A DNA stretch of 64,000 nucleotides, from the NCBI GenBank assembly GCA_947561715.1, contig OX387202.1:20969001-21033000 (forward strand), read 5' to 3'. Source of the stretch: Ascidia mentula. Its lineage: Eukaryota > Chordata > Ascidiacea > Phlebobranchia > Ascidiidae. The notes under the pieces are model-generated. The model searched no databases, was not told where the DNA came from, and worked only from the letters and a program-made list of their open reading frames with translations. Positions 16,627 to 42,753 of the stretch are shown piece after piece; within the stretch, counting starts at the first letter, position 1; each line of letters begins with the position of its first letter. Both the position numbers and the translations under genes were made by a program.

Positions 16627-19600
16627 TTACTCGCATTTCACTTTCATCTTAGAACTCATTATTCCGCTATATGAGTTTTTCCAATCCCACCAACTCATAG
16701 TGTTGCGCGCAGTAGAAGTTCTCGACCACGGACCATTGAGGAGGGCATATGAACAATAACGATGCCACCAAGCTCCACCATGAGTCACAGCACAATTACC
16801 ACTTGGATACCTGCAATTATAATTAAGTCGGTTGTCAACAACTCTGTGTTACAACTTATTTAAACTCATTTAAAACTTGTGTTTAACTAAAACTTTAACG
16901 CAACCCCCTGTTTCAGAGCAATTGATTCAAACAATTGTTGATTTAGGGTGGGCGGTTAACTTTGTCAACGAAAATCAACTATTTGAGGAAATGCATTTCA
17001 TCTTTATTAAAACAACTCGATTTACTTCGTTAGTAAAACAGAAATATAATCAGACACGTTGTATCATTATTACTCACGTATCATGGTCTCTGTTGCGTGT
17101 TGAAAATCTCATCCCGTTTAGACTGTGGGACCCAGTCATGGCATCTCCTATGTTCCCCGAATATCCGGATATAGTAATTGTGTAAGAACTTCCTTCATCG
17201 CCAATGCTGAAAGTACTGAAAACAACAATGTCATAATGTTTAATTTAATGCAAAGTAATTTAAATAACAACGGATAATTTGTTGTTTTAAATCAATCCGC
17301 TTACATTGGTTTGTTGCTCATGGAAATGATTGTTAAACATAAAACCCTTTATGACGTAATAAACGACATGTGTCATACATTGTGTTGTGTTGTGTGGGAT
17401 AATTATTTGTCAACTAAGCAATAAACACAGAGTGGGATTAGAAGTTTTGAGAAGGAAACCCAGATATTTTTCAACTTTAAGTTCACAAACGACTGGAGGA
17501 TTACAAGGAGGCTTTATTGTAGCTGAAGAACAAAGCGGATAAATCTAACTTTCCAGTCAAGATGCAAAGGTCAGTACTTGGCACTCAAGATTTTACCACA
17601 AGGACTTGGGCAACAACGACCGCATAAACTCGTCTGGGCAACAGATTTTCCTTAACCTTTTTTAAGTGGTTCTTAACCTTTTTTATCTCATTTCCCACTT
17701 CCAGTGTAAACGGAATCCTTATTTCCCACTGGTATTTACATTTTTTAACTAAGAATTTGATTATTGTATTTTCGTTATATCTGTTATACTTTTTTAACTT
17801 TTTCTACCGCATGGCATTACCAATTACCAATAAGTGTACAACACACAGTGAATACAGATCATTATATTTCGTTTCCGACTATTTTTGTGTATTTCGGTGC
17901 CGACTAATTATCCACCTACAACAGTGGTCCTCAAACTGCGGTACGCGTACCACTAGTAGTACGCGAGAGCTTTTCAAGTGGTACGCGATTTAGTCTATTC
18001 TATATAATTTGCCGCACTTTGCAGAAGCCAAAACCGCTGCAAATACATGATGTCGGTTTTCTTTATTGTGCATCTGTGACGCAATAGTATCAACGTGAAA
18101 TTGTTGCACTCTTGAAGTAATTCTGACATCGTGTATTCAACTGTGCAACAATTTCACGTTGATACTATTGCGTCACAAATGCACAATAAAGAAAACCAAG
18201 CAGATATTGGCTAAATTGTTATTCATTGGTGTTATGTCATAACAGTTATGATATAGTAATACGGTGGTATGCAGTGTATTAAAAAACAAATGAGCGGTAC
18301 GTGATTGGAAAAAGTTTGAGAAACACTGACCTACAACCTTTAAATTTCCCACCGGATATGAACCACTGGCCTAAGGAATTAACTCTGCAGGCCAATGCAC
18401 CCATTTTCTTGCATAGAGACCCAACAATATCCAATCAACCACGCAACGACCAGCAGCTAACCCAGGGGTGGGCAAAGAGAACACAGAGTGTATACACTAT
18501 ACAACTTATACACTGACAATCAAGTTGTGTCAGCGTCTTACACGTCGCGATTACGGGATTTTTGTTGCTTCATTCAAAACATTGGGGGCCAAGCATGTTG
18601 GGCAGAAAATCGAAATTTCAAACCATGGATTATGCATGGGTGTTAGATGGAGAATATAATAACCATTTGATCCCATATATCGATGTGGGACACAGCACTA
18701 ATATTCACTGGATTGCTGCAACCAATTGTCAAACGGTTTGACCGTGGTCATTTTCGCTTGAACTGCGCAAAAAGGTGACGTTCGACCCAATCCGAGCCCC
18801 ACTGAGCTCGGTCCTGGCAATCCGCGAACAAGCGATCGCGCAAACCTCAAAAGCGGTGATGTGGGGTCGTTACGAGTTGATTACCATCCCTATGTGTGTG
18901 CGGTATCTAATTTTATTTTTTTTTTGTTTTCATAATTATTCCGAACCGAGTAAATGCATTGAAACACAGCAAGAATATTCTGTGTTGCTTCAAACTTAAA
19001 ACACGAATTTTGTGAATCTGACGTAATAAGGAGGGTATTTCCCCTAATGACTTTTAAGATTTTGTTAGTTATGACGACCTTTTAAGATTTTGTTAGTTAC
19101 GACGTTAAATACGTCATAGTCTTACCTATACTCGGCAAATCCTTGACCTCCGGAAAAATCCTGAAGGTCAACACGAAGGCGACATCTAGTGGACGCACTG
19201 GTGATTTGATACAGTTTCTCCAAACCTGATAAAATTTGTTGGTTGTAATAATATTGCTGAAAACACTGGAATTTAAATTGAATTAACTGATACTGTTATA
19301 GTGACTCTAGGATTGTTACGAAGCGTACTTGAAACGTTTTGCTTGGTTGGCCTGTATATTTAACTGGGTGTGCACAAGTTACAACAATGTGTTCAGTAAA
19401 TGTATTCAACCTAAAACAAAGCTGGAACTCCTGTTGCTGCCAGATGGCATATTGCAATTTAAAATGTACCGCTCTTCTGGCATGAAATATACGTGCTGTA
19501 TTTTTACGACGTTCCGTCTGCCATTCAGCGAGACTTCATCAGGTATTAATACCGCAATTTCAAAGTAAACTACACTAAAACATTTAAGGGCACAAAAACG

Positions 19601-22600
19601 AAAAAAGGACAGGTTGACACCGCTTGTCAGATCACGTGGCAGAGGCAAAACACGAAACACTGCGGGAGGCGCAACAGTTACAACAAATTGTTATAAACTG
19701 CCGGAAAGTAGACACAGTGCTGTTTGTCGTTGACGCATCCACTGTTTTTGTGAATGTGAAGCGACTCAAGAAAGAGCCGCTTGGTGTGGTCCAACTCCTT
19801 TTCCAGAACTTGGAAAGGGCTTTATCGAAGGCAACTTCGTGTCGCAGTGTCACCGCATGCTTGGCCAACGCAGTCTTGCTGGCATCTTTCGATGCGACAT
19901 CACGGCGATGCTCTTTCAGTCGCGTCTTAAAGGCCCTTTTAGTTTCACCGATGTAAATACCATCGCAATATTTGCATGGTATTAAACAGACCATTCCCTT
20001 TGGCTCGGAAGCCTCCGTAGCAATGGGTCGTGAAATTACATTGCCAAGCGTTGTATGGGGCTTAGTATAGATTTTAATGCCTAATCCGACATCAATCTTC
20101 CCAATGTTTCGTCAAGGCCAGGGTTGAAGGGAATAACAACTGCTCCGCTAGTGGGCGTTTCATCCTTACGGGTTATTGCCAGTATATTTTGAGCGTGCCA
20201 TAACAGTGGTGATTGCTAGGGATACCGGTACATTGGTGAACAATGACACCACATCAAAGGATACCATTCTGTCATGTTGCTCCACTCGTAAGCTCCGTAC
20301 CTCGACTGCAAACTCGCGTGAGTTTTTCACATGGTGCGGACTATTGCCCAACAAAAGGAGCGATTATTTTAGCATTCTTGAGTTGCTTCACATTCACAAA
20401 AACAGTGGATGCGTCAACGACAAAGAACAATGTGTTTACTTTCCTGCAGTTTATAACAATTTGTTGTAACTGTTGCGCCTCCCGCAGTGTTTCGTGTTTT
20501 GCCTCTGTCACGTGATTTGACAAGCGGTGTCAACCTGTCCCTTTTTCTTTTTGTGCCCCTGAATGTTTTAGTGCAGTTTACTTTAAAATTGCGGCATCAA
20601 TACCTGATGAAGTCTCGCCGCATGGCAGACGAAACGTCGTAAAATACAGCACGTATATTTTATGCCAGCGGTACATTTTAAATTAAAACAAACTATTATT
20701 CAAAGTTTTGCAACATTTGTACTTGGTTAAGGATTGCTTTATTGGAATACAAACCAATCCAAAATTCTGTTGATAGATCCCCAAACCCGTTCTTGTAATC
20801 CACCCAATCTCTATCGAAACTAACAGATCCATCATAACGACGCTGGAACACCTGGTATTTATCAAGTAAAACGCTTGACACTGATTTTCGGCGAATTGGT
20901 CTAAAAAAGTTAGATGACCTCCATGTCAATATATGACTTTTCACTTTCGTGTGTAATTTCCTGACCTTTAGAAACAACACAATCCCGGGCGTATTGTTAA
21001 GTATTGTAGCGTGAAATCGTAAATTACATGGCGTGCATAATCACCTCGCTTACCCAACTAAGCGCTGGTGCCAGGGATTGCCCACCCCTGTGTTAGTGAT
21101 ATTAACCACAGTATGAATACCTGCCATCCATCTTCACAGTAAACTTCTTCTCCAGATCTGAGACTTTGGCGACCTTGATATGGGGAAGTTTTGCAAGATT
21201 CGTAATGCACAAATTCGTGAAGATTTTCCAGTCCTACAGAAATACTGTGATGAATTCTGGTTGGTTTCAATCAACGGACGCATGAAATGGGTTGAGGTTT
21301 TAATATAAGGAGGTTGTTGTTATCTGTTTCCTGCTTTACGTTGACATGCCGACACATGTGGAGTCAACAAATTTACGATGATTTTGCTAAAAATGTTTTT
21401 AAAATTTTGATAAATGTAATAAATTAGTGGCGGCTAACCAGAAGTGAAATGCTTAATGTAGGATTATCCCCATTGTGCGGTTATCTGCTGAAACTTCTGA
21501 CTGATGATTAAGTACGATGATTCGAGATATACTTTGTCCCAATATATTCTGTGCCACGTGAATGTTTTACTTTTCGCATTGCGATTCAATATCATGTATG
21601 GGTTTTGAATTTTGGAAAACGTTTATATCTTGTTGTTGCACATAATCATACTTTACTGCTCCCTAGCGTCGTTGGTGGCTATGAGTAACTTGATTTCTGT
21701 GTGTTGCGTGAATTTGTGAGTGACCGAGGTTTATTCGAGGTCGAAAAGTGTTACCAGTATTCAATACAGGTTATATACAAGTTTTAAACTTGTCACGAGT
21801 ATAATTATCAGGTGATTGGCAAATACGCCGATAACCACACCACTAGGGGCAGAAAGGACTCCTGACGGGTATAGATTCTAGCATTTGTTAACTTGACACA
21901 AACGTGAGAAATCAATTTAAATAAAACTAAACTCAACTGTTGGAAGTGTTACTCAGTTGACCTTGCAGTTGATCCACTCTGTTCGACAACTCTGTGAATA
22001 TAATGTTCGATGTGTGAGTTGACATTGCATGTTAAGTGCATGAACTTAACTGTTAGATGTGCGGTTCTGCTCACTCTGCAGTTGATCCACTCTGTTCGAC
22101 AACTCTGTGAATATAATGTTCGATGTGTGAGTTGACATTGCATGTTAAGTGCATGAACTTAACTGTTAGATGTGCGGTTCTGCTCACTCTGCAATTGATC
22201 CACTTTGTTCGACAACTCTGTGAATAAAATCTTCGATGAATTTACTTTAATATGATTTTATGAGAGTTCACCGTGTAGGGGATTTGTTGTACTGCTGTGT
22301 TTGTATCAAATATCTATCTAAACTGCTTGGTTTGTTAAAGTTTCCCTATCCAATAATAAATTTTGTCGAAAAGTGTTTAGAGAAGAATCTTATACCTGTA
22401 ACAAGTCTCATCAAATCTTCTTTGCCAGCCACAGGTCCTTGGTCTCCCTTTTCACCTCGGTGACCTTGAGGTCCACGTGGTCCCATCTTTCCTGGTCTTC
22501 CAGTCTCTCCTCTGCCACCTTTCAAGCCGGAATGTTCTATCTCAGATCCTTGTTCTTGTCCGTCACAAACAACTCTGCATACTTGTTGATGTTGGTGAGT

Positions 22601-22651
22601 TATGACAAGATGGCCGACCAACAAAACTCCAAACAAAATCAATTTCAACAT
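16627..22651 (-). CDS. Ficolin-like secreted lectin: signal peptide, collagen triplets, fibrinogen-related domain
   Basis: Six exons give an intact 295-residue protein: 22396-22651, 21121-21233, 20755-20851, 19126-19225, 17078-17215, 16627-16810. Phases 1,0,1,2,2 all agree and the lengths sum to 888 bases. Residues 1-20 are a signal peptide. Two cysteines (25, 29) could link chains. Residues 42-74 are 11 uninterrupted Gly-X-Y triplets. The rest is a FReD with [46 protein letters not shown] and a final MKVKCE. Vertebrate and ascidian ficolins bind acetylated sugars on microbes and activate complement through MASPs; length and domain order fit that family. The first acidic residue of the usual calcium-site DxDxD is Asn (NRDHD). 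Intron 1 holds the 113-bp satellite, intron 3 a Penelope-like fragment, intron 4 a hAT-type MITE. Paralogue at 34293-42753. Confidence 0.88.
17922..18328. mobile_element. hAT-type MITE with internal 55-bp hairpin
   Basis: A 407-bp insertion with imperfect 16-bp ends (CAGTGGTCCTCAAACT / AGTTTGAGAAACACTG), the classic hAT terminus, flanked by an 8-bp target duplication ACCTACAA at 17914-17921 and 18329-18336. The duplicate segment A2 has the empty site with one ACCTACAA near 35590. An internal palindrome has 55-bp arms at 18055-18109 and 18143-18197. No transposase. Inserted after the A1/A2 duplication, or in one lineage of it. Confidence 0.92.
19456..20685 (-). mobile_element. Penelope-like element fragment with inverted termini (in A1)
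   Basis: Minus-strand fragments encode a Penelope-type reverse transcriptase piece ([13 protein letters not shown], 20354-20166) and a GIY-YIG endonuclease piece ([20 protein letters not shown], within 19994-19850). The outer parts, 19456-19772 and about 20374-20685, are inverted copies of each other, each ending in a CTGATGA…GAAACG-type motif. The element is 5'-truncated and has no full RT. It lies in intron 3 of the ficolin-like gene. Confidence 0.8.
20604..20637 (+). ncRNA. Hammerhead-like core in the Penelope-like terminus
   Basis: CTGATGA, then a GTCT/AGAC hairpin, then GAAACGTCGT. Matching copies in the inverted arm (19510-19542, minus), in A2 (37875-37907 plus; 36787-36818 minus) and as a degenerate fragment at 30324-30356. 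The core boxes fit a hammerhead ribozyme; pairing of stem I is not convincing, so activity is doubtful. Confidence 0.35.
21965..22230. repeat. 113-bp satellite, short array (about 2.3 units)
   Basis: Units start at 21965, 22078 and 22191, exactly 113 bp apart (GCAGTTGATCCACTCTG…). Located in intron 1 of the ficolin-like gene. Same unit as the longer array at 38801-39854. Confidence 0.95.
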
Positions 22652-23841
22652 TTTCAAACAAGCTAGACTTTGAAAATCTGTAAATAGTTGCTCAGTCATC
22701 ACATGGAAATTAACAAAGTAAACGCCAACGTTAAATTTGCACCAAAATTGCCTAATTAGCAACTACATTGAAAATATGGAAGATTCACTGAGACCTGCGG
22801 GCGAAAATCAATACACATTTATGCTGCGTAGATGAAACAAATATGAAAATAATGCAAATGATAAATGTGGAGTTTAAATACATGTTGCGCATAATCCAAC
22901 CTTAAACTGTTGACCAATGTTACGTTACTTAATGTAAAACTTTCAGTGCGGCCAGCAATTATGCAAGGAAGTGCTCAGTGCGTGAGTTTGTTGATTGTAA
23001 ATTGCGCATAACTGCATTATCCCGTCTACTGAGGTCTCAACAACATCAGTAAACGAACGCAATGAAAAGAATGCTGTTGTTATGTACATCGTTGCCAAAT
23101 AAACCACAAAACTTTGTTAGGACAAACTGATTTGTCAATTGTTGCGATACAGAAGTCACTTTTGCTTGATTTCTTACGTCACGCGTTGTAAAAAGGCACC
23201 TGCCACAAGTTACGTAATGCTTCAGTGATCGCAATGCGTCGAACTAGACACGCGGGGATCATGCATTCATCACGTGGACCGCTTGGTCTCGACGAAAACT
23301 AATATCCAACCGCATTTAAAAAACGTACTTCTACGTCAATTAACATTGTGCGCTAAGGATTTTTTGATGCAGATATAAGTCAGCCGCACAGAAAGTGTTG
23401 AGAATATTTGTTTATGATTAAAGTTGTTTTCTGATAATAAAGGAACAAACATATCCTTGTAAACGAGTTTTGCAGTCGAGTTATCCATCGCAAATTATAT
23501 CTGGCATCTCTACTTGGTTTAAACTTTACCTTCAACTCTATCAGTTATAACTTGTCCAAGTACGAGTGACATTAAACCACGGTCAGCTGCAATACAAGCT
23601 TGATCTGAACTGGATCACGTTGCGTTTCCAACCACACAGACCCGAGCAAACTCCAAGCAGTAATCGCGACGCAACGGTAACTTGCTTAAAACCTCCTTCA
23701 AGTTGCCGGAGACCTTTGAATTTCCGAGGACCGAATAACGTCACTGATACGAAAACACGGCGTATCAAAATACATCCATGCAAAGGAAGTCGGTTCAAAT
23801 ACCTAAGTGCGTGCGCTCGTTTGCAAGAGTTCGTAAAACCT
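22652..23841. other. 5' flank of the ficolin-like gene
   Basis: About 1.2 kb upstream of the ATG of the ficolin-like gene, before the tandem duplication B1. No coding exon recognised; a 103-codon plus-strand open frame at 23566-23877 has no recognisable domain. Confidence 0.4.
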
Positions 23842-26430
23842 GCATTTATTCTGGCTTTGAATTCTCGCTCCCTTTAATCGGTGCGTTTGGGTTGGTTATG
23901 GAACAAGACGCAGTTAAACTCAGTGCAATTTAAGCTGTTCTATCTGAATACTAATGGTTGACACTGAATTGAGATGAAATAAATATGTTGGATGACTTGG
24001 ACGGTGGCAAAAGCCGCTTAAATATACAAGTTTTACATGTGTTGCGACCTATATGCCAATTATGAGCCTCAATCCGGTACTTAACAATATTATTTATGAT
24101 CGATGGGAAATCCTATTTGATTAACGCATTTGACATAAGATTGCACGTGAGTTCTAATTGTTGTGTTTTCCTAACCTGACTTTAATTGAAACTTGATGCA
24201 AACATTCCAACAATATTCATTTAAAATGAACAATTTTGGACACGAAATTAACATGCGCAATTATACCAACGCCAAACTGAGTGAATTTACGCCCAAACGC
24301 ACAGACAAAATTGAACAGAACCAAATCACAAAACCGATGAACTGAGATGAGCACAGTACAGCTGCGCTGCGCTGCCCTGCCCTGCCCTGCCCTGCCCTGC
24401 CCTGCCCTGCCCTGCCCTGCCTCGGTCCTCAGCTAAACGCACACGGAAAGTTACAAAGAAAGGTCGGTTACTGAAAGACGATGAAGGACAGTCACATGGG
24501 AAAACTTAAAGTCTCAAAGCGACCAAGTCACTTGAGATTAATATGACGCAAAACAGCTGTTAAACCATATCACACAAAAGCCAAAAAAAGACACAAATCA
24601 CATGAATGGTCAGCTGTTGCTATCGCTAAATTTTGAAGTGAAACCCGTTTGCCAAGACGATCTAAAAATACCAATTACTCAACCCAGTGGACTGAGACGC
24701 CAAAATGACAACTGGCCATGCAACCTTAAGTCCATTAATGCAACCGTTGACATGTAATGCAAAATCACGTTACAACATGTACATATTCAAATGAAATATT
24801 ACACACAAATATTTTCGTATCTTGCTCCTGGTTTTCAGGTGAATTTCTTTTCTCACTTTAACAAAACCAGGCGGATGACGGATCGCTAATATTAAAGAAC
24901 TTATGCGTGTTTCTTTTCCTAATCCTATGCTTTCAAACAAACTCTTACAAACGCAACTATTCAGATACCAAAAAATAAACCTTTTAATGCTTTGTCTAAT
25001 ATTAATATAATGACTACAATCGCTCAACATCCTATAGAACGTTGGCAACACAATTGACGGCACGACACAAAACTGCAAAAAAGTGGGGAAATGCTTCGTT
25101 GGCGCTGAGCGTGAAGTCAATACAAGTTTGTAGTGAGGCGTGAAGGAATGTGGTTGTGGGGCAAATGGAGTTGCACTGGTTTCACTAAATGGGCGCCTGA
25201 CTTTATTAAACGGACTAATGTTAAAAACGACAATAAAACGTACATACAATTCCAGTAGTAATACATGCTTTCGCATAGCAAGGCAGGATCGCCCCACTTG
25301 GAGGGCAGTGAAAGCGTGATATTACTTCTGCGTTGTCTGATTACTGTGGTGGAGATCCTCTACGCATGTGAAGGTCGCCTGACAATCCAGCTCGGCTGCA
25401 ATGCCTTGGCTGCGAACCCTGTGAACTTTACAATTCCAGTAAACGCCCGCCACTAAAAACAACCGTACAGCTCAACGCCCATCTCAAGACTAACGGGTCA
25501 TACACACAGCACTTCTTGCACCGGCTAATCAACCAATCAACTGTATGTTTAGGCAGGGGAAGATACAGGTTCAATCGATTTGGTTTCAAATTGGTTGATG
25601 CTTTATTAAGTTGCGCAGTCAAACTTGAGACAAGCAAAACACTCGTTCATGAGGCGGCAACCGCAACACGAGAAAGGCAATGGCGCGCTTCGATGCACAG
25701 GCGAACACTGTGGTGGCCATCATCTAAATTTTTCTTTTCGCCCCACCTAAAAGATGTGCAAAGAGGTAACAAGTTGTCAAACACTCTTTCCCACTGGTTG
25801 ATTTGGTCACACACACATATATATATATCAATGGATTGGTTATTGTTGTATCTGCTTTGGTGATGCTAGCTGGAGCACAGGAAGGCGCATCTTACCGATA
25901 TTTTGTCTTTTCAGAGTATGACGTTCATCAGATTACCAACAGTTCGAAGTAGTTTTGCCTGTATTGATGATCACTTACCATTGCTTCCAGAATAATGAAC
26001 ACAACATTACGGCAAACAACCATATTTGAGGGTTTTGGGATAAAATGGCCTCCAAATTAACATATTCAGGGTTAAGTCCGTCACCACTAGTTACTTGGAG
26101 ATTTGATGTAATGTAAATCGTCTCCTACTGAGTGAATTTGCCCTCCCTTGGGGCGTAACGTTAATAATTGTGGACAATATCAGCATCAGCACTCGCAGGA
26201 CAAAGCACAGCCTGCTGTTCCTTCGTGAAGTCGATATTGAGTTGATTTATTAGCGAAAGATAATTGTAGACCCAACTGCTACCTTTCGGTTAAAAGATTG
26301 AACACGAATTTAAACAACAAAACGAAGTTCTCCATGTAAGCGAAAAGTTCAATAAATACTGCAAGTATATCAACCTGCGCTGCTCTGGAGGGACCGACAA
26401 ATCTGTCCCATCTTTTCAAATATAAAATAT
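23842..26430. repeat. Tandem duplication copy B1
   Basis: 2589 bp directly followed by a second copy (B2). Divergence is low, with small indels; about 130 bp near 24965-25095 is absent from B2. Apart from an expanded CTGCC microsatellite and a possible lectin-like exon (25265-25440, weak), no gene is evident. Confidence 0.92.
24361..24422. repeat. (CTGCC)n microsatellite
   Basis: About 12 pentamer units (CTGCG then CTGCC). The same site in B2 (about 26950-26965) has only about three units, so the array expanded or contracted after the duplication. Confidence 0.95.
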
Positions 26431-28844
26431 GCATTTTTTCTGGCTTTGAATTCTCGCTCCCTTTAATCGGTGCGTTTGGGTTGGTTATGGAACAAGACGC
26501 AGTTAAACTCAGTGCAATTTAAGCTGTTCTATCTGAATACTAATGGTTGACACTGAATTGAGATGAAATAAATATGTTGGATGACTTGGACGGTGGCAAA
26601 AGCCGCTTAAATATACAAGTTTTACATGTGTTGCGACCTATATGCCAATTATGAGCCTCAATCCGGTACTTAACAATATTATTTATGATCGATGGGAAAT
26701 CCTATTTGATTAACGCATTTGACATAAGATTGCACGTGAGTTCTAATTGTTGTGTTTTCCTAACCTGACTTTAATTGAAACTTGATGCAAACATTCCAAC
26801 AATATTCATTCAAAATGAACAATTTTGGACACGAAATTAACATGCGCAATTATACCAACGCCAAACTGAGTGAATTTACGCCCAAACGCACAGACAAAAT
26901 TGAGCAGAACCAAATCACAAAACCGATGAACTGAGATGAGCACAGTACAGCTGCCCTGCCCTGCCTCGGTCCTCAGCTAAACGCACACGGAAAGTTACAA
27001 AGAAAGGTCGGTTACTGAAAGACGATGCAGGACAGTCACATGGGAAAACTTAAAGTCTCAAAGCGACCAAGTCACTTGAGATTAATATGACGCCAAACAG
27101 CTGCTAACCATATCACACAAAAGCCAAAAAAAGACACAAATCACGTGAATGGCCAGCTGTTGCTATCGCTAAATTTTGAAATGAAACCCGTTTGCCAAGA
27201 CGATCTAAAAATACCAATTACCCAACCCAGTGGACTGAGACGCCAAAATGACAACTGGCCATGCAACCTTAAGTCCATTAATGCAACCGTTGACATGTAA
27301 TGTAAAATCACGTTACAACATGTACATATTCAAATAAAATATTACACACAAATATTTTCGTATCTTGCTCCTGGTTTTCAGGTGAATTTTTTTTCTCACT
27401 TTAACAAAACCAGGCGGATGACGGATCGCTAATATTAAAGAACCTTTGCGTTGTTTCTTTTCCTAATCCTCTGCTTTCAAACAAACTCTTACAAACGCAA
27501 CTATTCTTCGTTGGCGCTGAGCGTGAAGTCAATACAAGTTTGTAGTGAGGCGTGAAGGAATGTGGTTGTGGGGCAAATGGAGTTGCACTGGTTTCACTAA
27601 ATGGGCGCCTGACTTTATTAAACGGACTAATGTTAAAAACGACAATAAAACGTACATACAATTCCAGTAGTAATACATGCTTTTGCATAGCAAGGCAGGA
27701 TCGCCCCACTTGGAGGGCAGTGAAAGCGTGATATTACTTCTGCGTTGTCTGATTACTGTGGTGGAGATCCTCTACGCATGTGAAGGTCGCCTGACAATCC
27801 AGCTCGGCTGCAATGCCTTGGCTGCGAAGCCTGCGAACTTTACAATTCCAGTAAACGCCCGACACTAAAAACAACCGTACAGCTCAACGCCCATCTCAAG
27901 ACTAACGGGTCATACACACAGCACTTCTTGCACCGGCTAATCAACCAACCAACTGTATGTTCAGGCAGGGGAAGATACAGATTCAATCGATGGTTTCAAA
28001 TTGGTTGATGCTTTATTAAGTTGCGCAGTCAAGCTTGACACAAGCAAAACACTCGTTCATGAGGCGGCAACCGCAACACGAGAAAGGCAATGGCGCGCTT
28101 CGATGCACAGGCGAACACTGTGGTCGCCATAATCTAAATTTTACTTTTCGCCCCACCTAAAAGATGTGCACAGAGGTAACAAGTTGCCAAACACTCTTTC
28201 CCACTGGTTGATTTGGTCACACACACATATATATATATATATCAATGGATTGGTTTTTGTTGTATCTGCTTTGGTGATGCTAGCTGGAGCACAGGAAGGC
28301 GCATCTTACCGATATTTTGTCTTTTCAGAGTATGACGTTCATCAGATTACCAACAGTTCGAAGTAGTTTTGCCTGTATTGATGATCACTTACCATTGCTT
28401 CCAGAATAATGAACACAACATTACGGCAAACAACCATATTTGAGGGTTTTGGGATAAAATGGCCTCCAATTTAACATATTCAGGGTTAAGTCCGTCACCA
28501 CTAGTTACTTGGAGATTTGATGTAATGTAAATCGTCTCCTACTGTGTGAATTTGCCCTCCCTTGGGGCATAACGTTAATAATTGTGGACAATATCAGCAT
28601 CAGCACTCGCAGGACAAAGCACAGCCTGCTGTTCCTTCATGAAGTCGATATTGAGTTGATTTATTAGCGAAAGATAATTGTAGACCCAACTGCTACCTTT
28701 CGGTTAAAAGATTGAACACGAATTTAAACAACAAAACGAAGTTCTCCATGTAAGCGAAAAGTTCAATAAATACTGCAAGTATATCAACCTGCGCTGCTCT
28801 GGAGGGACCGACAAATCTGTCCCATCTTTTCAAATATAAAATAT
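26431..28844. repeat. Tandem duplication copy B2
   Basis: 2414 bp, direct repeat of 23842-26430, starting at GCATTTTTTCTGG and ending in …CAAATATAAAATAT. The same short frames as in B1 recur with few changes. Confidence 0.92.
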
Positions 28845-29298
28845 AAAAAAATATGATTTAACATTCCAAAAGACTTTAATTTGGGCCTCATCGGAGTTCC
28901 AACTAAACTACGTTATTTTGCATTTCAGGCATTTCGCATGCTGTCCATAAAACAACTGGCTGGAACACTAGTGCACTGGCCCAACATCGATAAAGACATT
29001 TTGAACATGTGTCTTAAGAGCTGTACATCTTAAGCCAAACATAAAAACATGATGCCGAATGCTCCCGTACATCCATGGTTGTTGACCGAGAAGCCATGGA
29101 ATTAAGGTCTCATGAATCCGTCCTTTAAATGTCAGATGTATAAAATTCCAAATAAGGTCACTTTCAACTCTTAGATTGTGCAATTTCTTTGAAATTCTGT
29201 TCATATTAGTTAAGACTGCATCGCCCGTGATGAGATTCACCTTTTGCTTCCTGCTATACAGAGCTGATATAAACCTACTTTCTTCAGAGCATGCAGGA
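28845..29298. other. 3' flank of the small coiled-coil gene
   Basis: Contains the 3' end region of the minus-strand gene at 29299-29726. A 125-codon minus-strand frame (29345-28968) overlaps it in another frame; I could not connect it to the gene or recognise a domain. Confidence 0.35.
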
Positions 29299-30309: not shown

Positions 30310-30392
30310 TCCTGAAATTCCTGTTGATGAAGTCTCGCCGCATGGCAGACGAAATGTCGTAAAATACAGCACGTTTATGCCAGAAGATCAGC
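30310..30392 (+). mobile_element. Fragment of the Penelope-like terminus
   Basis: Matches the plus-oriented terminal arm seen at 20600-20680 and 37870-37950 (GATGAAGTCTCGCCGCATGG, then GAAATGTCGTAAAATACAGC). A solitary 3'-end relic, with no coding part. Confidence 0.75.
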
Positions 30393-32863: not shown

Positions 32864-35800
32864 CAATTCTACAAAACTTCACTCTCTCCATGCCATCTAC
32901 ATTCTTCCATGGAATGCAACCGGCAGACGCATCAGACGCGTCTGTGTCCTCCACAAACTGCTGCGTTAAGTATGTTTATTACACAAGAGTGTATAAGGTC
33001 TAACCTTGGGAGGTGACAAGAAAATGATTTGTAAAGGAAAGCCAAAGCTAGTATGCTACTCATGCCGAAGCAAACGTTTCAAACACCACTGTGTTCATCA
33101 TCAGTGACAAGTAAGAATGAGTTGCAGCAAGGTGTGCGCAGAGGTAGGCAGGTAACTGAACAGACAAAAACAACAACACAAATAAAACACGTGACAGACG
33201 CCACTCGAAGGCCCACGGCCGTTACGTCATCATTTGGGCTGCAATGAGGACCTGGGTGTTGACAAGAAACCTTGTTATAACACAATTTACCCTCACATAA
33301 AACCTTTCCCATAAGTCGGAGAAATGGCGCCGAGATATCCGCACATTTCTGTAAATATTAGCGGTGAATTGGCGTGACTGCATTTTTGGGGTTTATCAGA
33401 GAATGCCAAACTGAACTAAATCAAATTTACTGACATCCTCGTATCAGAAATCAACTGTCAAATCTGATGGATCAATGTTTATATTTACATGGATTATCAA
33501 CATAAAGCATGGAAACGGTTGCATGCGATATTACAACAACGACATGATATACAAGGAATGATAAAACGGAATATGTTGTCAATATCTAATTGACACTAAT
33601 AAGTAGTGTCGACGTCATAATTGCAATTATTATGTTGTGTTTTTCTGGCATCAACCGTTTTTTTATTAACGTCGGATAATAATCACGCTGTAAACCAAGT
33701 TTACCTCATTTACGGCGAACGTGCTATTCGTTCGTTGACACTTCCAGCAACAAGCCGCCTTTTCAAATGAGTCACGTGGTAATCCGAACTCAAATAACCC
33801 GGTATGTATTTTCTATATAGGCCACATGTCTTTTGCGTAAAAAAGATACGAAGGGACAGAGGACAAAGGACATATAGGACAGAGACTTTTTGTACGCGTG
33901 GTTTGTAACGTGTTATTGTTAATCCTCGTGCGCTTGTTTATTATGTATTAAACTGATCGATTGACTTTGGGTTTGATAGCAGCCTTTTTATCAGGAGTCA
34001 GATATACGGCAGTGTTATTATTTGTGTAGACGTTTTAAGTAACGCTCTAGAAATACCATGATAATAACAAACATGCAAAATGGCAAAGTTTTCGCTACTA
34101 ACACAAAACTGTGTTGTTTGTGAAATAAATTCGGTTCGGTATAATTGCTTTCCTGTTATTTACGATTTAAAGCCTTTATCAAAACTGGTGAAAATATTTA
34201 CAATGTCTGTCAATAATTGTCAATCAACACAACGTTGCCATGGTAACTAACGACGCAATGTTAATTTTCGTCACTTCAAACCTCCCCAACAATTATTCGC
34301 ATTTCACTTTCATCTTAGAACTCATTATTCCGCCCATTGAGTTTTTCCAATAATACCAACTCATAGTGTTGCCACCAGTAGAAGTTCTCGACCACAGACC
34401 ATTGAGGAAGGCATATGAACAACTACGATGCCACCAAGCTCCACCTTGAACCACAGCACAATTACCTCCCCACCTGCAATTATAATTAAGTCGGTTGTCA
34501 ACAACTCTGTGTTACAACTTATTTAAACTCAGTTAAAACTTGTGTTTAACTAAAACTTTAACACAACCCCCTGTTTCAGAGCAATTGATTTTTACAATTG
34601 TTGATTTAGGGTAGACGGTTAACTTTGTCAACGAAAATCAACTATTTAAGGAAATGCATTTTATCTTTTTCAACACAACCCGATTTACTTCGTTAGTAAA
34701 ACAGAAATATAATCAGACACGTTGTATCATTATTACTTACGTATCACGGTCTCTGTTGCGTGTTGAAAATCTCATCCCGTTTAGACTGTACGTCCCAGCC
34801 ATGGAATCTCCTGCATTCCCCGAATATCCGGATATAGTAATTGTGTAAGAACTTCCTTCATCGCCAATGCTGAAAGTACTGAAAACAACAATGTCATAAT
34901 GTTTAATTTAATGCAAAGTAATTTAAATAACAACGGATAATTTGTTGTTTTAAATCAATCCGCTTACATTGGTTTGTTGCTCATGGAAATGATTGTTAAA
35001 CATAAAACCCTTTATGACGTAATAAACGACATGTGTCATACATTGTGTTGTGTTGTGTGGGATAATTATTTGTCAACTAAGCAATAAACACAGAGTGGGA
35101 TTCGAAGTTTTGAGAAGGAAACCCAGTTATTTTTCAACTTTAAGTTCACAAACGACTGGAGGATTACAAGGAGGCTTTATTGTAGCTGAAGAACAAAGCG
35201 GATAATTCTAACTTTCCAGTCAAGATGCAACGTTTTGGCAAAGGTCAGTACTTGGCACTCAAGATTTTACCACAAGGACTTGGGCAACAACGACCGCATA
35301 AACTCGTCTGGGCAACAGATTTTCCTTAACCTTTTTTAAGTGGTTCTTAACCTTTTTTATCTCATTTCCTACTTCCAGTGTAAACGGAATCCTTATTTCC
35401 CACTGGTATTTACATTTTTTAACTAAGAATTTGATTATTGTATTTTCGTTATATCTGTTATACTTTTTTAACTTTTTCTGCCGCATGGCATTACCAATTA
35501 CCAATAAGTGTTCAACACACAGTGAATACAGATCATTATATTTCTTTTCCGACTACTTTTGTGTATTTCGTTACCGACTGATTATCCACCTACAACCCTA
35601 AAATTTCCCACAGGTAAGAACCACTGGCCTAAGGAATTAACTCTGCAGGCCAATGCACCCATTTTCTTGGATAGAGACCCAACAATATCCAATCAACCAC
35701 GCAACGACCAGCAGCTAACCCAGGGGTGGGCAAAGAGAACACAGAGTGTTTACACTATACAACTTATACACTGACAATCAAGTTGTGCCAGCGTCTTACA

Positions 35801-38443
35801 CGTCGCGATTACGGGATTTTTGTTGCCTCATTCAAAACATTGGGGGCCGAGCATGTTGGGCAGAAAATCGAAATTTCAAACACTGGATTATGCATGGGTG
35901 TTAGATGGAGAATATAATAATCATTTTCATCCCATATATCGATGCGGGACACAGCACTAATATTCACTGGATTGCTGCAACCAATTGTCAAACGGTTTGG
36001 CCGTGGTCATTTTCGCTTGAACTGCGCAAAAAGGTGACGTTCGACCCAATCCGAGCCCCACTGAGCTCGGTCCTGGAAATCCGCGACCAAGCGATCGCGC
36101 AAACCTCAAAAGCGGTGATGTGGGGTCGTTACGAGTTGATTACCATCCCTATGTGTGTGCGGTATCTAAACTTTTTTGTTTCATAATTTTTCCGAACCGA
36201 GTAAATGCATTGAAACACAGCAAGAATATTCTGTGTTGCTTCAAACTGAAAAAACACGAGTTTTGTGAATCTGACGTAATAAGGAGGGTATTTCCCTAAT
36301 GACTTTTAAGATTTTGTTAGTTATGACGACCTGGCAGCATCAGGTAAATTATCGTTGAAACAATGGCATTAAATTGAAAACGTTAAATACGTTATAGTCT
36401 TACCTATACTCGGCAAATCCTTGACCTCCGGAAAAATCCTGAAGGTCAACACGAAGGCGACATCTAGTGGACGCACTGGTGATTTGATGCAGTTTCTCCA
36501 AACCTGATAAAATTTGTTGGTTGTAATAATATTGTTGAAAACACTGGAATTTAAATTGAATTAACTTATACTGTTATAGTGACTCTAGGATTGTTACGAA
36601 GCGTACTTGAAACGTTTTGCTTGGTTGGCCTGTATATAAACTGGGTGTGTACAAGTTATAACAATGTGTTCAGTAAATGTATTCAATCTAAAACAAAGCT
36701 GGAACTCCTGTTGCTGCCACAGGCATATTGCAATTTAAAATGTACCGCACTTCTGGCATGAAATATACGTGCTGTATTTTTGCGACGTTTCGTCTGCCAT
36801 GCGGCGAGACTTCATCAGGTATTAATACCGCAATTTCAAAGTAAACTACACTAAAACATTCAGGGGCACAAAAAAGAAAAAAGGACAGGTTGACACCGCT
36901 TGTCAGATCACGTGACAGAGGCAAAACACGAAACACTGCGGGAGGCGAAACAGTTACAACAAATTGTTATAAACTGCCGGAAAGTAAACACATTGTTGTT
37001 TGTCGTTGACTCATCCACTGTTTTTGTGAATGTGAAACGACTCAAGAAAGAGCCGCTTGGTGTGGTCCAACTCCTTTTCCAGAACTTGGGCTTTATCGAA
37101 GGCAACTTCGTGTCGCAGTGTCACCGCATGCTTGGCCAACGCAGTCTTGCTGGCATCTTTCGATGCGACATCACGGCGATGCTCTTTCAGTCGCGTCTTA
37201 AAGGCCCTTTTAGTTTCGCCGATGTAAATACCATCGCAATATTTGCATGGTATTAAACAGACCACTCCCTTTGGCTCGGAAGCTTCCGTAGCAATGGGTC
37301 GTGAAATTACATTGCCAAGCGTTGTATGGGGCTTAGTATAGATTTTAATGCCTAATCCGACATCAATCTTCGCAATGTTTCGTCAAGGCCAGGGTTGAAG
37401 GGAATAACAACTGCTCCGCTAGTGGGCGTTTCATCCTTACGGGTTATTGCCAGTATATTTTGAGCGTGCCATAACAGTGGTGATTGATAGGGATACCGGT
37501 ACATTGGTGAACAATGACACCACATCAAAGGATACCATGCTGTCATGTTGCTCCACTCGTAAGCTCCGTACCTCGACTGCAAACTCGAGTGAGTTTTTCA
37601 CGTGGTGCGGACTATTGCCCAACAAAAGGAGCGATTATTTTAGCATTCTTGAGTCGCTTCACATTCACAAAAACAGTGGATGCGTCAACGACAAAGAACA
37701 ATGTGTTTACTTTCCTGCAGTTTATAACAATTTGTTGTAACTGTTGCGCCTCCCGCAGTATTTCGTGTTTTGCCTCTGTCACGTGATTTGACAAGCGGTG
37801 TCAACGTGTCCTTTTTTCTTTTTGTGGTCCTGAATGTTTTAGTGTAGTTTACTTTGAAATTGCGGCATCAATACCTGATGAAGTCTCGCCGCATGGCAGA
37901 CGAAACGTCGTAAAATACAGCACGTATATTTTATGCCAGCGGTACATTTTAAACTAAAACAAACCATTATTCAAAGTTTTGCAACATTTGTACTTGGTTA
38001 AGGATTGCTTTATTGGAATACAAACCCATCCAAAATTCTGTTGATAGATCCCCAAACCCGTTCTTGTAATCCACCCAATCTCTATCGAAACTAACAGATC
38101 CATCATAACGACGCTGGAACACCTGGTATTTATCAAGTAAAACACTTGACACTGATTTTCGGTGAATTGGTCCAAAAAAGTTAGATGACCTCCATGTCAA
38201 TATATGACTTTTCACTTTCATGTGTAATTTCCTGACCTTTATAAACAACACAATCCCGGGCGTATGGTTAAGTATTGTAGTGTGAAATCGGAAATTACTT
38301 GGCGTGTATATTCACCTCACTTAACCAACTTAGCGCTGGTGCCAGGGATTGCCCACCCCTGTGTTAGTGATAATTACTACAGTATGAATACCTGCCAGCC
38401 ATCTTCACAGTAAACTTCTTCTCCCGATCTGATATATTGGCGA
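32864..38443. repeat. Segmental duplication copy A2 (lectin cassette)
   Basis: 5.6-kb copy of 15288-21175. It carries the FReD exons of the membrane lectin gene. It lacks the 407-bp MITE of A1 and has an extra block of about 85 bp near 33568-33655. Similarity fades inside exon 38392-38504, and the array of 113-bp satellite follows in the next intron, as in A1. Confidence 0.9.
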
Positions 38444-41400
38444 CCTTTAAGATCTGAAGTCTTACAGGAATCCCGTGAAACAGTATATATGAGATTCCAG
38501 AGATCTGCAGACGGTTAAAACTCATCAGATTGGTAGAAGTATTGAGTTAAACTCATTTACAAGCAAGTAGGCGGTGAAAACCACACAATATTTGCACGAC
38601 CTGGATTATGACCAGAATATACTCTCTGATATGGAACCCTCTCTGATTCGCACGTGATGACGTATATGTTGGGTATGCCAATACCTTTGCGAGTAATGAC
38701 GTGACTAACGGGCAAAGGTTTTCAGAATTTGACACATATGTGAGATTTATATTTAAATAAAACAAAACTCAACTGTTGGAAGTGTTACTCAGTTGACCTT
38801 GCAGTTGATCCACTCTGTTCGACAACTCTGTGAATATAATGTTAGATGTGTGAGTGGACTTTGGATGTTAAGTGCATGAACTTAACTGTTAGATGTGCGG
38901 TTCTGCTCACTTTGCAGTTGATCCACTCTGTTCGACAACTCTGTGAATAAAATGTTAGATGTGTGAGTGGACATTGAGTGTTAAGTGCATGAACTTAACT
39001 GTTAGTTGTGCGGTTCTGCTCACTTTGCAGTTGATCCACTCTGTTCGACAACTCTGTGAATAAAATGTTAGATGTGTGAGTGGACTTTGGATGTTAAGTG
39101 CATGAACTTAACTGTTAGATGTGCGGTTCTGCTCACTTTGCAGTTGATCCACTCTGTTCGACAACTCTGTGAATAAAATGTTAGATGTGTGAGTGGACTT
39201 TGGATGTTAAGTGCATGAACTTAACTGGTAGATGTGCGGTTCTGCTCACTTTGCAGTTGATCCACTCTGTTCGACAACTCTGTGAATAAAATGTTAGATG
39301 TGTGAGTGGACATTGAGTGTTAAGTGCATGAACTTAACTGTTAGATGTGCGGTTCTGCTCACTCTGCAGTTGATCCACTCTGTTCGACAACTCTGTGAAT
39401 ATAATGTTCGATGTGTGAGTGGACATTGAATGTTAAGTGCATGAACTTAACTGTTAGATGTGCGGTTCTGCTCACTCTGCAGTTGATCCACTCTGTTCGA
39501 CAACTCTGTGAATAAAATGTTAGATGTGTGAGTGGACATTGAGTGTTAAGTGCATGAACTTAACTGTTAGATGTGCGGTTCTGCTCACTCTGCAGTTGAT
39601 CCACTCTGTTCGACAACTCTGTGAATATAATGTTCGATGTGTGAGTGGACATTGAATGTTAAGTGCATGAACTTAACTGTTAGATGTGCGGTTCTGCTCA
39701 CTCTGCAGTTGATCCACTATGTTCGACAACTCTGTGAATATAATGTTAGATGTGTGAGTGGACATTGAAATTAAGTGCATGAACTTAACTGTTAGATGTG
39801 CGGTTCTGTTCACTCTGCAGTTGCTCCACTATGTTCGACAACTCTGTGAACAAAACTTACGTTAACGTTGACATGTTTTACGTCACTAACATTACCCTTA
39901 CCATGAACTCCAATGTAATCGGTCAGCATTTCTTGGATCGTTTGGTTTTTGTCTTTTTTAAGTTGGCCTGGAAACATGCATGTTTTTCTGATATAACTCT
40001 TAAGAAACAAAACAAGCTATTTTTTAGACTAGTCCAGGTCAGTGCGTCTATGTGTTATTCACCGAAATTAATAAAGTGCCTGATGTTATTTACTGTGCGG
40101 ACCTTCTCAAAAAATACAACATAATTTTTTCCCAACATCGTATGGAGGAAAACCACATATTGATACTTTTCTTCACGTTTTCTTTGATTATCTGTGTTGT
40201 TTATGCACGCAACGCAACCCTTCTATCCCTTTGTTTTTATCGGTTTCCTGCACTCACATGTAATTTTGCACCAGTGTAAAAAAACTTCACCGGGTTTTCT
40301 TAGTATGGTTCGGTTGTATTTTTTTTGCTGGTATTAGTTAAGTTGTAAGATATACTCTATACACAAAGGTCATTAATGTAGTCAGTTACTGGATAGCTGT
40401 ACTAGTAATCACTAGGTGGCGATGATAAGGCCAAAAGGTGGCGCTATAGAAAGATATTTTACTTTGAATATCCACCAGGTCAGTCTGTTGGGTCTGAATT
40501 TCCTGCAACTTGTTCGTAAGTTGACCTGAAAGTGCAATCGTTAACGAAAAAGGGAAATATTTTTATTACAAAACCGGTAATATTTAATTCTTTGTTTAAA
40601 GTAATTATAACTTCCTGTGTATTTAAGTGTCAGCTTTCACAATCTCATAAATTCTCATATTTTCCTACCATTGGTCACGAAGATCTGAATCAAACCCTGA
40701 AAAATATTTTGTTTTATTCCGTGATCTCTAAAATGGACAGAATCTAGCCCCTGATGTTGCACAGTCTTAAAACACGACAGCAATTATCGGATAGAAAATG
40801 TTTGAAACCAAGTGTTTCTGATTTCCGTCAGTTGGTTTATTTTTTTAATTTGTGAAAAATTGATTTTCGCCTACAACATACGTCATCATCAGTTTCTGCA
40901 AATAAACTGCATTAAAACACTCGAAGCTACATGTACCTAAAATAAGCAAACAAATAAAACTGAAATGGTGATCACAATGTCCCCTACCACTGCATCTACA
41001 CAACTGTTAACTTCACTGCAGTGCAAGGCCCTCTGACACCGGAGACAGAAAGATAAGAGAGTGCGAATCAAAACCATGACGACCCGCAGCACGAATGCAC
41101 GACGTCATTGAACAACATTAAAACAATGGTGAAAGATGTTCTCCATCCATAAAAACACAACACCAAACAAAACTGCCAGCAACCGCTTACGAATTCGGGG
41201 GGAATCATTTTTTAAATGTTTATTGAAACTTGGGTGCGGTTCAGCCATTTTGGCTTCGCACACATCCAGTCCTTTAACCATAGACTGTTCTACAAATACC
41301 ACCCACAAAACAACTTGAAATGCTTAAACGCGTTCCTGCCGGTGGGTGAGCGTTTGCAAAATGGTGGCGCAGAGCCGCCTTGTCGTTGCTTCCCAAGTTG

Positions 41401-42753
41401 CCTTTGATTAAATTCTAATCTGTGTTGTGTCCATCTTGTTGAAAATTTATTTTTGGTTTTGCCAACGTATTGTTCATGACATGTTGTGCACGTTGCAACA
41501 TCAATGCTGAAACTCGCACAAGTTACATGTTGCAGCAGTTTATATTGTTTGCCTGCTATTGTTGTTAATGTTGTCGTTTCATTAACCATGGATATGTAGT
41601 TACCATGGTGACCGCCCAATGCGAACCGCCCACAAGGGCAGCTACCAGGAGGGTCGTTGCAGTTCGTTTGCAGGACAAGTTGATTGTCCTCGGTGAAGCA
41701 TTCCGCTTGCGCCGCAACAACGAAAGACAGAACTTGGGGTACAGCATTTCCTCAGGTTCTCAAGCTCACACAAAAAGAAGGGCAATTAAAGAGCCAGGCC
41801 CAAATCGTTTACAAACGACCCCCCTCCTTGGGCGACATTTTTGGAATTCAACCAAAGGCAAGTTGAGAAGCAACGACAAAACGTTTGTTTGTTTATTTTT
41901 GGTACATGTAGCTTCGAGTGTTTTAATGCAGTTTATTTGCAGAAACTGATGATGACGTATGCTGTACGAGAAATCAATTTTTCACAAAATAAAAAAATAA
42001 ACCAACTGACGGTAATCAGAAACACTTGGTTTCAAACATTGTTTTATTCCATAAGTAGTGGAAGCGTACAAGATCTATGTTAGCTCCCAAACCAGAAACG
42101 AAACTTTCATATTGGTCATGATTGAATATATCTCGTTTCACAAAGCACACGGTTGATTTATTACGCTCCAACTTCTGTTTACCCATAGCATGTTGACGCT
42201 ACGCTAATTTCTTACTCATATGAAACTTACCAGAGCGAGAGCTGTTGCGATAACCAGACCCAGTACCACCAGCACAATCTTCATTCTTCTAAGCTCAGAA
42301 CGTAATTGTGACAACTTCTCTTTCTCCGCGCTTTGCTGAGGTTCCTCGTAAACTGATTGTTGTTAAGTTTACAGACGTGCTTTTAGTTCGGGTAATTTAG
42401 CTTCCAACAAAACCTTACGTTACTAGGTCTAGTATCTTTCTCCTTGAGTTTGTCATTGTAATATTCCAACTCTTACGTAAGCCCATTTTTACTGGCGTTT
42501 CATTATGTAAAGGTTATGACGTCATAATACACGTTGTCAAATAAATGTCATTTTGGTACAAAGCGTCAATTGTGACGTCAAAAGTTGTTAAAAAATAGTT
42601 TTGACTTTTCTGCTTTATTCACACCGGTTGGGAAACCGCGTCAGACAACAAGATATTAGTTTCTCCACACAAAGATAATATAACCAGTTTGTACGACTTA
42701 CTGTTTTCCTGGGGACCAGAGCGAGCCGTCATTTCATAACTTTCGCGATTCAT
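34293..42753 (-). CDS. Type II membrane protein with fibrinogen-related domain (FIBCD1-like architecture)
   Basis: Eight exons give an intact frame of about 280 residues: 42702-42753, 42231-42352, 40463-40502 (least certain), 38392-38504, 38026-38122, 36404-36503, 34741-34878, 34293-34473; lengths sum to 843 with matching phases. The 42-residue N-terminus is polar and presumably cytoplasmic, with tyrosines in SYEMT and IYEEP; RRMK precedes a hydrophobic helix (43-58), which sets a type II orientation. A short heptad-like stalk (LVDIQNL) leads to the FReD ([41 protein letters not shown]). FIBCD1 in vertebrates is a type II acetyl-group receptor of this layout; homology to FIBCD1 itself is not claimed. 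The FReD exons are near-copies of those of the ficolin-like gene, but the 5' exons are unrelated. Introns hold a 113-bp satellite and two Penelope-like fragments. Confidence 0.75.
36731..37955 (-). mobile_element. Penelope-like element fragment with inverted termini (in A2)
   Basis: Duplicate of the fragment at 19456-20685 in the equivalent lectin intron: GIY-YIG piece (37265-37110, minus),RT piece (37625-37437, minus), and inverted arms of about 300 bp at both ends. Present before the A1/A2 duplication, since both copies sit at the same site. Confidence 0.8.
38801..39854. repeat. 113-bp satellite, long array (about 9.3 units)
   Basis: Unit starts at 38801, 38914, 39027, 39140 and so on every 113 bp. 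Units alternate between subtypes (AATATAATGTTCG versus AATAAAATGTTAG), suggesting amplification of multi-unit blocks. It lies in the membrane lectin intron matching the short array at 21965-22230. Confidence 0.95.
40797..42040 (-). mobile_element. Second Penelope-like fragment with inverted termini
   Basis: Minus-strand GIY-YIG-like coding piece (41619-41290: [20 protein letters not shown]). Ends 40797-40960 and about 41878-42040 are inverted copies of about 160 bp, each with CTGATGATGACGTATG and, on the right, a CGTA/TACG hairpin before GAAAT. A different family from the fragment in A1/A2. Lies in an intron of the membrane lectin gene. Confidence 0.7.

Follow-up and report, generated by a model that had tools for sequence, protein, structure and literature searches.

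Two genes and their predicted products

The window analyzed here is a 64,000-nucleotide stretch of the Ascidia mentula genome (C70:20969001-21033000; GenBank contig OX387202.1). It carries two neighboring minus-strand genes, gene A and gene B, that both end in a fibrinogen-related domain (FReD). They probably belong to a large germline family of hypervariable tunicate FReD lectins that was amplified recently. The window lies ~137 kb short of the end of the 21.17-Mb contig C70, in a genome of 195.8 Mb in 79 contigs.

Gene A (window positions 16627-22651) has nine coding exons and encodes 349 amino acids, and gene B (34293-42753) has 20 coding exons and encodes 499. All internal splice sites of both are AG/GT and the frames are open throughout, in agreement with a first-pass annotation that had described two intact minus-strand genes. 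The gene A protein is arranged as signal peptide (read from the hydrophobic N terminus), 11 uninterrupted Gly-X-Y triplets, neck, and FReD. Gene B encodes a cytoplasmic tail, a transmembrane (TM) helix, a coiled coil with neck, and a FReD. Its N terminus is a charged stretch of 42 residues followed by a strongly hydrophobic segment (mean Kyte-Doolittle 3.0 across 19 residues), and the type II topology was judged from this hydropathy and the charged N terminus. Both N termini thus read as the annotation had them, and its central point, one FReD in two presentations, holds: neighboring genes present one FReD module, one in a predicted secreted collagen protein and the other in a predicted type II membrane protein. 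The gene A product matched PF00147 at 173.8 bits (cut-off 22), and its collagen match (PF01391, 19.6 bits) was under the cut-off of 27.2. A Pfam scan of both proteins gave no immunoglobulin superfamily (IgSF) match. The features of the two genes, all on the minus strand, are as follows.

22396-22651, minus strand: gene A exon 1, with signal peptide, Cys pair, and 11 Gly-X-Y triplets including PGKMGP
21938-22217, minus strand: gene A neck array, three 54-nt phase-1 exons (22217-22164, 22104-22051, and 21991-21938) in 113-bp units
21121-21233, minus strand: gene A FReD exon 1, type A
20755-20851, minus strand: gene A FReD exon 2
19126-19225, minus strand: gene A FReD exon 3
17078-17215, minus strand: gene A FReD exon 4, with hypervariable patches
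16627-16810, minus strand: gene A FReD exon 5 and stop codon, with hypervariable patches
42702-42753, minus strand: gene B exon 1, start of the cytoplasmic tail
42231-42352, minus strand: gene B exon 2, cytoplasmic tail (YEEP) and first part of the TM helix
40669-40696, minus strand: gene B exon 2b (predicted; rival candidates exist), 28 nt encoding GLIQIFVTN, which completes the helix and restores the frame
40463-40525, minus strand: gene B exon 3, coiled coil
39902-39967, minus strand: gene B exon 4, coiled coil
38774-39843, minus strand: gene B neck array, ten 54-nt phase-1 exons in 113-bp units (one unit of 112 bp)
38392-38504, minus strand: gene B FReD exon 1, type B
38026-38122, minus strand: gene B FReD exon 2
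36404-36503, minus strand: gene B FReD exon 3
34741-34878, minus strand: gene B FReD exon 4, with hypervariable patches
34293-34473, minus strand: gene B FReD exon 5 and stop codon, with hypervariable patches

The gene A block 15284-21176 aligns to the gene B block 32861-38447 in four pieces at 95.0-96.5% identity, introns included. The FReD exons had been called near-identical, which is true of exons 2 and 3 (1 difference in 97 nt and 1 in 100 nt, respectively) but not of exons 4 and 5, which differ by 6.5% and 12.2%, more than the 5.2% of the intervening intron. Similarity halts at about the middle of FReD exon 1 and resumes in an array of 113-bp units that the first-pass annotation had overlooked.

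The exons first named for gene B contained a phase clash, and a missed 28-nt exon is needed. Splicing of the TM exon straight to the 40.5-kb exon was rejected, as the former ends in phase 0 and the latter starts in phase 1. The intron after the TM exon was therefore searched for open AG..GT segments that mend the phase. Exon 2b (40696-40669), encoding GLIQIFVTN between tttttcag, a strong acceptor, and gtagga, mends the frame and lengthens the TM helix to a 23-residue stretch. It is intact in all six other loci with sequence reaching it: four copies are identical and two, in the most distant loci, have 2 and 4 substitutions, with conservative changes. No copy is seen in four further loci, whose available sequence stops ~1.5 kb past the TM exon. 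Other open candidates were found at 13 and 16 nt (7/7 or 6/6 loci), 73 nt (6/6), 79 nt (5/5), and 55 nt (7/10), all with weaker-looking acceptors, and the 28-nt exon was chosen because of acceptor strength and helix extension. Exon 1 of gene B is 100% identical in seven of the 10 TM loci scanned (gene B counted) and 94-98% identical in two; it was not found in the tenth, L034.

A reading of the TM exon as a signal peptide starting at an internal Met was also rejected: the frame is the same, and that Met is absent from L113 (C70:3180300-3187000). L113 represents a more distant membrane subclass (TM2), with a TM exon 73% identical to that of gene B and an exon 3 match only at chance level.

A neck of tandem exon-intron units

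Between the 5' exons and the FReD lies a tandem array of 113-bp units, each composed of a 54-nt exon and a 59-nt intron. The neck exons of genes A and B begin and finish in phase 1 and are hence frame-neutral; all 13 units (three in gene A and ten in gene B) have AG/GT sites and an open frame. Each exon encodes an 18-residue coiled-coil-like repeat with Leu-x3-Val-x2-Leu spacing, and the commonest form contains an N-glycosylation sequon.

Neck length ranges from 1 to 40 units per gene. The other soluble (collagen-type) genes have 40, 31, 25, 14, 13, 3, 2, 2, 1, and 1 units, and one more has 8 in sequence that ends inside the array. Other membrane genes have 5, 9, 8, and 9 units, and 3 were counted in TM2_3180, where the sequence also ends inside the array. 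A GT donor is missing from four units of the 25-unit gene, from one each in two membrane genes, and from one in a gene cut off within its array; skipping of such an exon would leave the frame intact. Across 162 units, diversity is 0.030 in the exon versus 0.056 in the intron, and 101 units encode identical 18 residues, so that the neck sequence is conserved while unit number varies. From the textbook helix rise, 18 residues span ~2.7 nm, which would give stalks from a few to ~100 nm long.

Module junctions and independence of class from the FReD

The soluble and membrane 5' modules meet the shared part of the genes at the neck array. Upstream of the first neck exon, same-strand similarity was found in none of 72 soluble-by-membrane pairs (12 x 6 loci). 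One pair was compared downstream: the soluble gene COL_C69_19386 and the membrane gene TM_3098 (C70:3098 kb) stay collinear at 94% identity, starting 21 nt ahead of the first neck exon and continuing as far as the available sequence reaches. The proposal that similarity fades just where the proteins diverge is not supported, as the neck is shared too.

There is a second junction inside FReD exon 1, of which the 5' half and the preceding intron exist in two unalike types, type A and type B. Among the 16 genes read, type A occurs in six of 11 soluble genes (gene A, 20795, 20817, 20505, 20548, and C69_19443) and type B in the other five soluble genes and all five membrane genes. The apparent fade between genes A and B within this exon arises because type A and type B 5' halves are being compared. 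The exon type was rejected as a class marker, since soluble genes carry both.

A tree of the FReD4-intron-FReD5 cassette required seven class changes for seven TM genes, and all 500 label shuffles gave as few (shuffled mean 6.4). The intron-only tree required six, and 210 of 500 shuffles were as low. Both trees have few well-supported branches. Class labels were available for 29 of 42 rows, six by contiguous sequence and the others by the nearest same-strand upstream 5' exon within ~10 kb; 13 rows had no label. On these data, 5' class and FReD binding domain are uncoupled. A sister relationship of genes A and B was rejected, as they are not sisters on the FReD tree, within the limits of its few well-supported branches.

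Family size and genomic distribution

The collagen exon of gene A has 35 genome matches at ≥87% identity, its own counted; 21 lie in C70:19.87-20.99 Mb on the minus strand, and the rest are elsewhere on C70, C69, and C67. The TM exon has 11 matches at ≥76% identity, that of gene B counted, three of them within the same cluster and gene B slightly past it. Both 5' cassettes thus recur genome-wide, and genes A and B do not stand alone as a duplicate pair.

For the 3' end, 115 first-look candidates were ranked by their likeness to gene A and the best 40 were scored as DNA; all 40 matches, genes A and B counted, are 89-100% identical to gene A. Two TM genes were added, giving 42 cassettes. Genes A and B are therefore one adjacent example within a tunicate family of at least 42 very similar 3' cassettes. 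All 42 have open frames, and 39 coding sequences are distinct (L081 equals L095, and L086, L103, and L106 are identical). Three exact coding duplicates were removed before the analyses of nonsynonymous versus synonymous differences (pN/pS), patch linkage, pairwise homoplasy index (PHI), Clavelina, and controls. Among full-length protein matches, gene A comes closest to ficolin-like proteins of Clavelina and Ciona (~35% identity).

Downstream of one soluble gene (C70:20842655-20853452, with L081, L082, L095, and L115), two extra FReD4-5 cassettes lie ~5.1 kb apart. The 4.5 kb that separate the cassette belonging to this gene from the following one (L095) contain no recognizable FReD1-3, neck, or 5' exon, and the extra cassettes may be alternative 3' ends, donors, or debris. 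Window segments 1-172, 11019-11607, and 13144-13508 recur at 97-99.7% identity downstream of L115, so duplicated units extend past the genes. A second, larger cluster at C70:16.88-17.97 Mb has dozens of FReD Pfam matches, mostly on one strand.

Hypervariable FReD exons

FReD exons 4 and 5 are more variable than the intron that separates them. The mean pairwise difference across the 42 cassettes is 0.096 in exon 4 and 0.129 in exon 5, which is ~2.5x and ~3.3x the 0.039 of the intron, and the exons exceed the intron in 857 of 861 cassette pairs. The pN/pS over all 105 core codon columns is 1.32, an unbiased figure given without a significance test. It falls to 0.67 in scaffold columns and rises to 2.17 in 19 variable columns, the latter value being biased by post hoc selection of the columns (entropy ≥1.5).

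L082 and L101 have no intron differences and differ by 12% in exon 5, a pattern hard to explain by ordinary point mutation. The variable patches are nearly unlinked, with a Mantel p of <0.05 in two of 28 patch pairs.

Variable positions around the binding pocket

The best solved-structure match to the gene A FReD, which served as the query rather than that of gene B, is FIBCD1 (4m7f, E 6.8e-36). The FIBCD1 calcium-site residues Asp393 and Asp395 have Asp at the equivalent positions in gene A. The S1 site of FIBCD1 comprises Tyr405, Cys414, His415, Tyr431, Trp443, and Ala432 in the accessible text of PMC3908420, with extended contacts at His382, His396, Glu398, Arg412, and Asn413 in that of PMC10825690.

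Of the 19 variable columns, two fall in gaps on FIBCD1 and the others map to 380-383, 396, 397, 399, 404, 405, 413, 416, 418, 429, 430, 438, 439, and 444. An S1 contact is no more than 2 residues away from 14 of the 17 variable columns that could be mapped, compared with 34 of all 85 mapped columns. The mean distance from variable column to contact is 1.4, versus 4.0 at random, and none of 20000 permutations was as low.

The residues of gene A equivalent to Tyr405, His415, Tyr431, Ala432, and Trp443 are His, Ser, absent, absent, and Ser, respectively. Gene B is like gene A in its conserved Ser after the second Cys and in lacking the Tyr-Ala pair. The S1 of ficolin-2 is likewise described as inactive, with other sites used, in the accessible portion of PMC10825690. 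The ligand range had been proposed to be the same for the soluble opsonin and the receptor, which does not agree with A-B differences that are greatest in the exons bearing the patches around the pocket. As the pocket is not kept and the patches surrounding it vary, the same ligands should not be assumed for genes A and B. Coupling of humoral and cellular recognition, also suggested at first pass, may occur.

Mostly the same columns vary in Clavelina

For Clavelina lepadiformis, 33 FReD proteins of the public protein set were taken as best matches to the gene B protein and 32 were used, with the divergent P0149 excluded; a collagen Pfam domain is listed for 19 of the 32. Among 101 columns, 15 are variable here and 17 in Clavelina, and 13 are common to both (P 2.8e-11). 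Column variability correlates with that of Clavelina at a Spearman coefficient of 0.63, versus 0.38 with 38 other FReDs hand-picked from other species among the match lists. The ratio of variable to scaffold entropy is 11.0 in this family and 1.8 in those 38 controls, which indicates more than generic loop variation, with some generic component present. The 32 proteins, all from P0097-P0152, form a hypervariable set whose variable columns mostly match those found here. Many entries in this range are annotated as "microfibril-associated glycoprotein 4-like", "fibrinogen-like protein A", or "ficolin-2-like".

Other features of the window and assembly

Between genes A and B lies a tandem duplication of ~2.5 kb at 97-99% identity (window 23834-28844), which includes a CTGCC x12 microsatellite (24362-24421). 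Introns of the two genes hold minus-strand fragments at 19632-20111, 37011-37382, and 41290-41751, which presumably resemble the tails of Penelope-like elements (GIY-YIG-like); a Pfam scan of two of the three gave no matches. An open reading frame (ORF) with a SAYSvFN domain (PF10260, E 4.3e-30; window 59662-60120, minus strand) is a possible synteny marker.

The mitochondrial COX1 frame (C79:4437-5774) contains 18 AGA/AGG codons, two of them ahead of the part aligned to the solved COX1 chain 5j4z_BN and 16 inside it. Counted by eye, 13 of these 16 face Gly and the others Ala, Gln, and Ala, with none facing Ser or Arg. Reading of AGR as Gly is a mark of tunicate mitochondria.

A probable germline repertoire and its alternatives

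Comparison of gene models shows modular genes, in which the 5' cassette is predicted to set the mode of delivery, the neck has 1-40 units, and a nearly invariant FReD scaffold carries variable last two exons. The function is most likely that of a germline-diversified recognition repertoire, and copies that differ mainly around the pocket suggest an inherited repertoire in two delivery forms. Its role may be in immunity rather than allorecognition.

Unequal exchange or gene conversion in the neck array would alter stalk length, and exchange there could put one 5' cassette in place of the other with the frame kept, in which case soluble and membrane proteins would draw binding domains from a common pool. 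Diversifying selection would act on residues around the S1 pocket. The proteins may trimerize through the coiled coil to form stalked lectins, whose targets could be varied non-self glycans on the surface of microbes or other individuals. The collagen motif that binds MASPs is Hyp-Gly-Lys-X-Gly-Pro, and PGKMGP is present in nine of the 10 collagen loci read. The soluble class may recruit MASP-like proteases through this motif, as ficolins do, and so start the lectin pathway; in the membrane class, the tail tyrosines (YEM and YEEP) may mediate signaling or target uptake.

Several observations weigh against this interpretation or parts of it. Synonymous difference in the exons (pS 0.095 overall, 0.066 in scaffold, and 0.23 in variable columns) exceeds the intron difference of 0.039. 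Protein-level selection hence does not account for all of the exon excess, which points to conversion from diverged donors or a homogenized intron. The near-zero linkage of patches could also reflect very fast independent change, and the recombination signal is weak (PHI p 0.096 for the whole region, 0.012 for exon 5, and 0.61 for the intron); gene conversion and very fast independent change are indistinguishable on these data. Exchange in the neck array is suggested by the positions of breakpoints. Exact overlap of variable columns with mapped S1 contacts is four of nine (P 0.074), and the canonical acetyl-binding S1 pocket is, judged from its residues, not kept in gene A or B, which makes sugar binding hypothetical. 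Splicing-in of the neck exons and exon 2b is a prediction. One of the 35 collagen exons contains a stop codon (C69:19443726), and PGKxGP is found in three of five vertebrate ficolin-like proteins (as PGKAGP) and in none of three Clavelina collagen proteins checked. Furthermore, past residue 25 no strong hydrophobic segment occurs in any of the 32 Clavelina proteins, so that the membrane class is seen in one species only.

Among other explanations, an allorecognition or gamete self/non-self repertoire, like v-Themis of the Ciona egg coat, in place of microbe recognition is the less likely function, although diversifying selection alone cannot separate the two. v-Themis is fibrinogen-like, sits on the vitelline coat, and has a hypervariable region, but in the accessible part of the same source (PMC7018956) its genes and sperm polycystin-like genes make up three pairs. 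A Pfam scan of 10 window ORFs gave no polycystin-type match, a weak test given the short exons, and collagen, PGKMGP, and dozens of dispersed copies better suit a ficolin-like role. That the patches are tolerated noise, in loops that are weakly constrained while gene conversion homogenizes the rest, would accommodate both the general variability of FReD loops (the correlation with the 38 controls) and the high synonymous difference of the exons. This is improbable in view of the excess of exons over their intervening intron in nearly all pairs, a pN/pS of >1 across all core columns, the open frame of every cassette, and the mostly identical set of columns varying in Clavelina.

The scenario first proposed, a single local duplication with replacement of 5' exons that yielded a soluble opsonin and a membrane receptor of the same ligand range, draws on the adjacency of genes A and B and their 95-96.5% identity over 5.9 kb. 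It is highly improbable, as the 35 collagen and 11 TM exon matches place both 5' cassettes genome-wide, the tree does not place genes A and B as sisters, 5' class and FReD are uncoupled, and A-B differences peak in the binding-site exons. An assembly artifact, in which unmerged haplotypes or chimeric joins imitate a family, is scarcely credible: other copies are 89-94% identical to gene A and some cassettes share a coding sequence (L081/L095 and L086/L103/L106), but 39 of 42 coding sequences are distinct, far beyond two haplotypes, and the Clavelina proteins have a matching pattern.

A recently amplified germline family of hypervariable FReD lectins thus remains our preferred reading. It could tentatively be extended to an antibody-like division of labor in ascidian germline lectins, in which the FReD pool is common, the neck array is the exchange joint that sets stalk length, and standalone FReD4-5 cassettes (e.g., L095) are donors or alternative 3' ends. 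Tunicates are the sister group of vertebrates and are not known to have antibodies. If true, this family would be a germline counterpart of secreted and membrane antibody forms, with one binding head in both, and specificity in tunicate immunity or allorecognition would become directly testable. The neck array is a clean natural case of how symmetric exon phases could allow recombination to remodel proteins while leaving them intact.

Relation to known systems

Each part of the system has a known cousin. Ficolins, those of ascidians included, are soluble collagen-FReD lectins acting in the lectin complement pathway, and they resemble gene A in signal peptide, Gly-X-Y repeats with PGKMGP, coiled neck, and C-terminal FReD; gene A differs in belonging to dozens of near-identical genes, in its tandem mini-exon neck, in S1 residues that are not kept, and in a collagen Pfam score under the cut-off. 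Tunicate ficolins with immune roles are reviewed in the accessible text of PMC5465252. FIBCD1, a type II membrane FReD receptor, shares with gene B the cytoplasmic tail, TM helix, coiled coil, and C-terminal FReD, but it is a single gene, whereas gene B is a family member whose neck and FReD are common with secreted proteins and whose acetyl-pocket residues are not kept.

The fibrinogen-related proteins (FREPs) of the snail Biomphalaria are likewise diversified fibrinogen-domain recognition proteins, according to the available parts of PMC12074976 and PMC7588048. FREPs carry IgSF domains, whereas here patches of the FReD vary, with collagen or a TM helix serving for delivery. v-Themis of Ciona is also a tunicate fibrinogen-like protein with hypervariable regions (PMC7018956, in part), but it is encoded at few loci, paired with s-Themis, and no such partner was found among the 10 window ORFs scanned. 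The neck of CLEC4M (DC-SIGNR), with its variable number of tandem repeats, is similarly a lectin stalk with variable repeat number in the portion available of PMC3261175. The CLEC4M repeats lie inside exon 4, as far as the accessible text of PMC11945572 goes, whereas here each repeat is its own exon plus intron. A literature search, with most subscription papers and preprints outside its scope and some sources accessible in part, found no report of this family. Within that literature, ficolins, FIBCD1, snail FREPs, v-Themis, and CLEC4M each match one part, but no report was found that joins two delivery modules with a neck array built exon by exon and a hypervariable FReD pool common to both.

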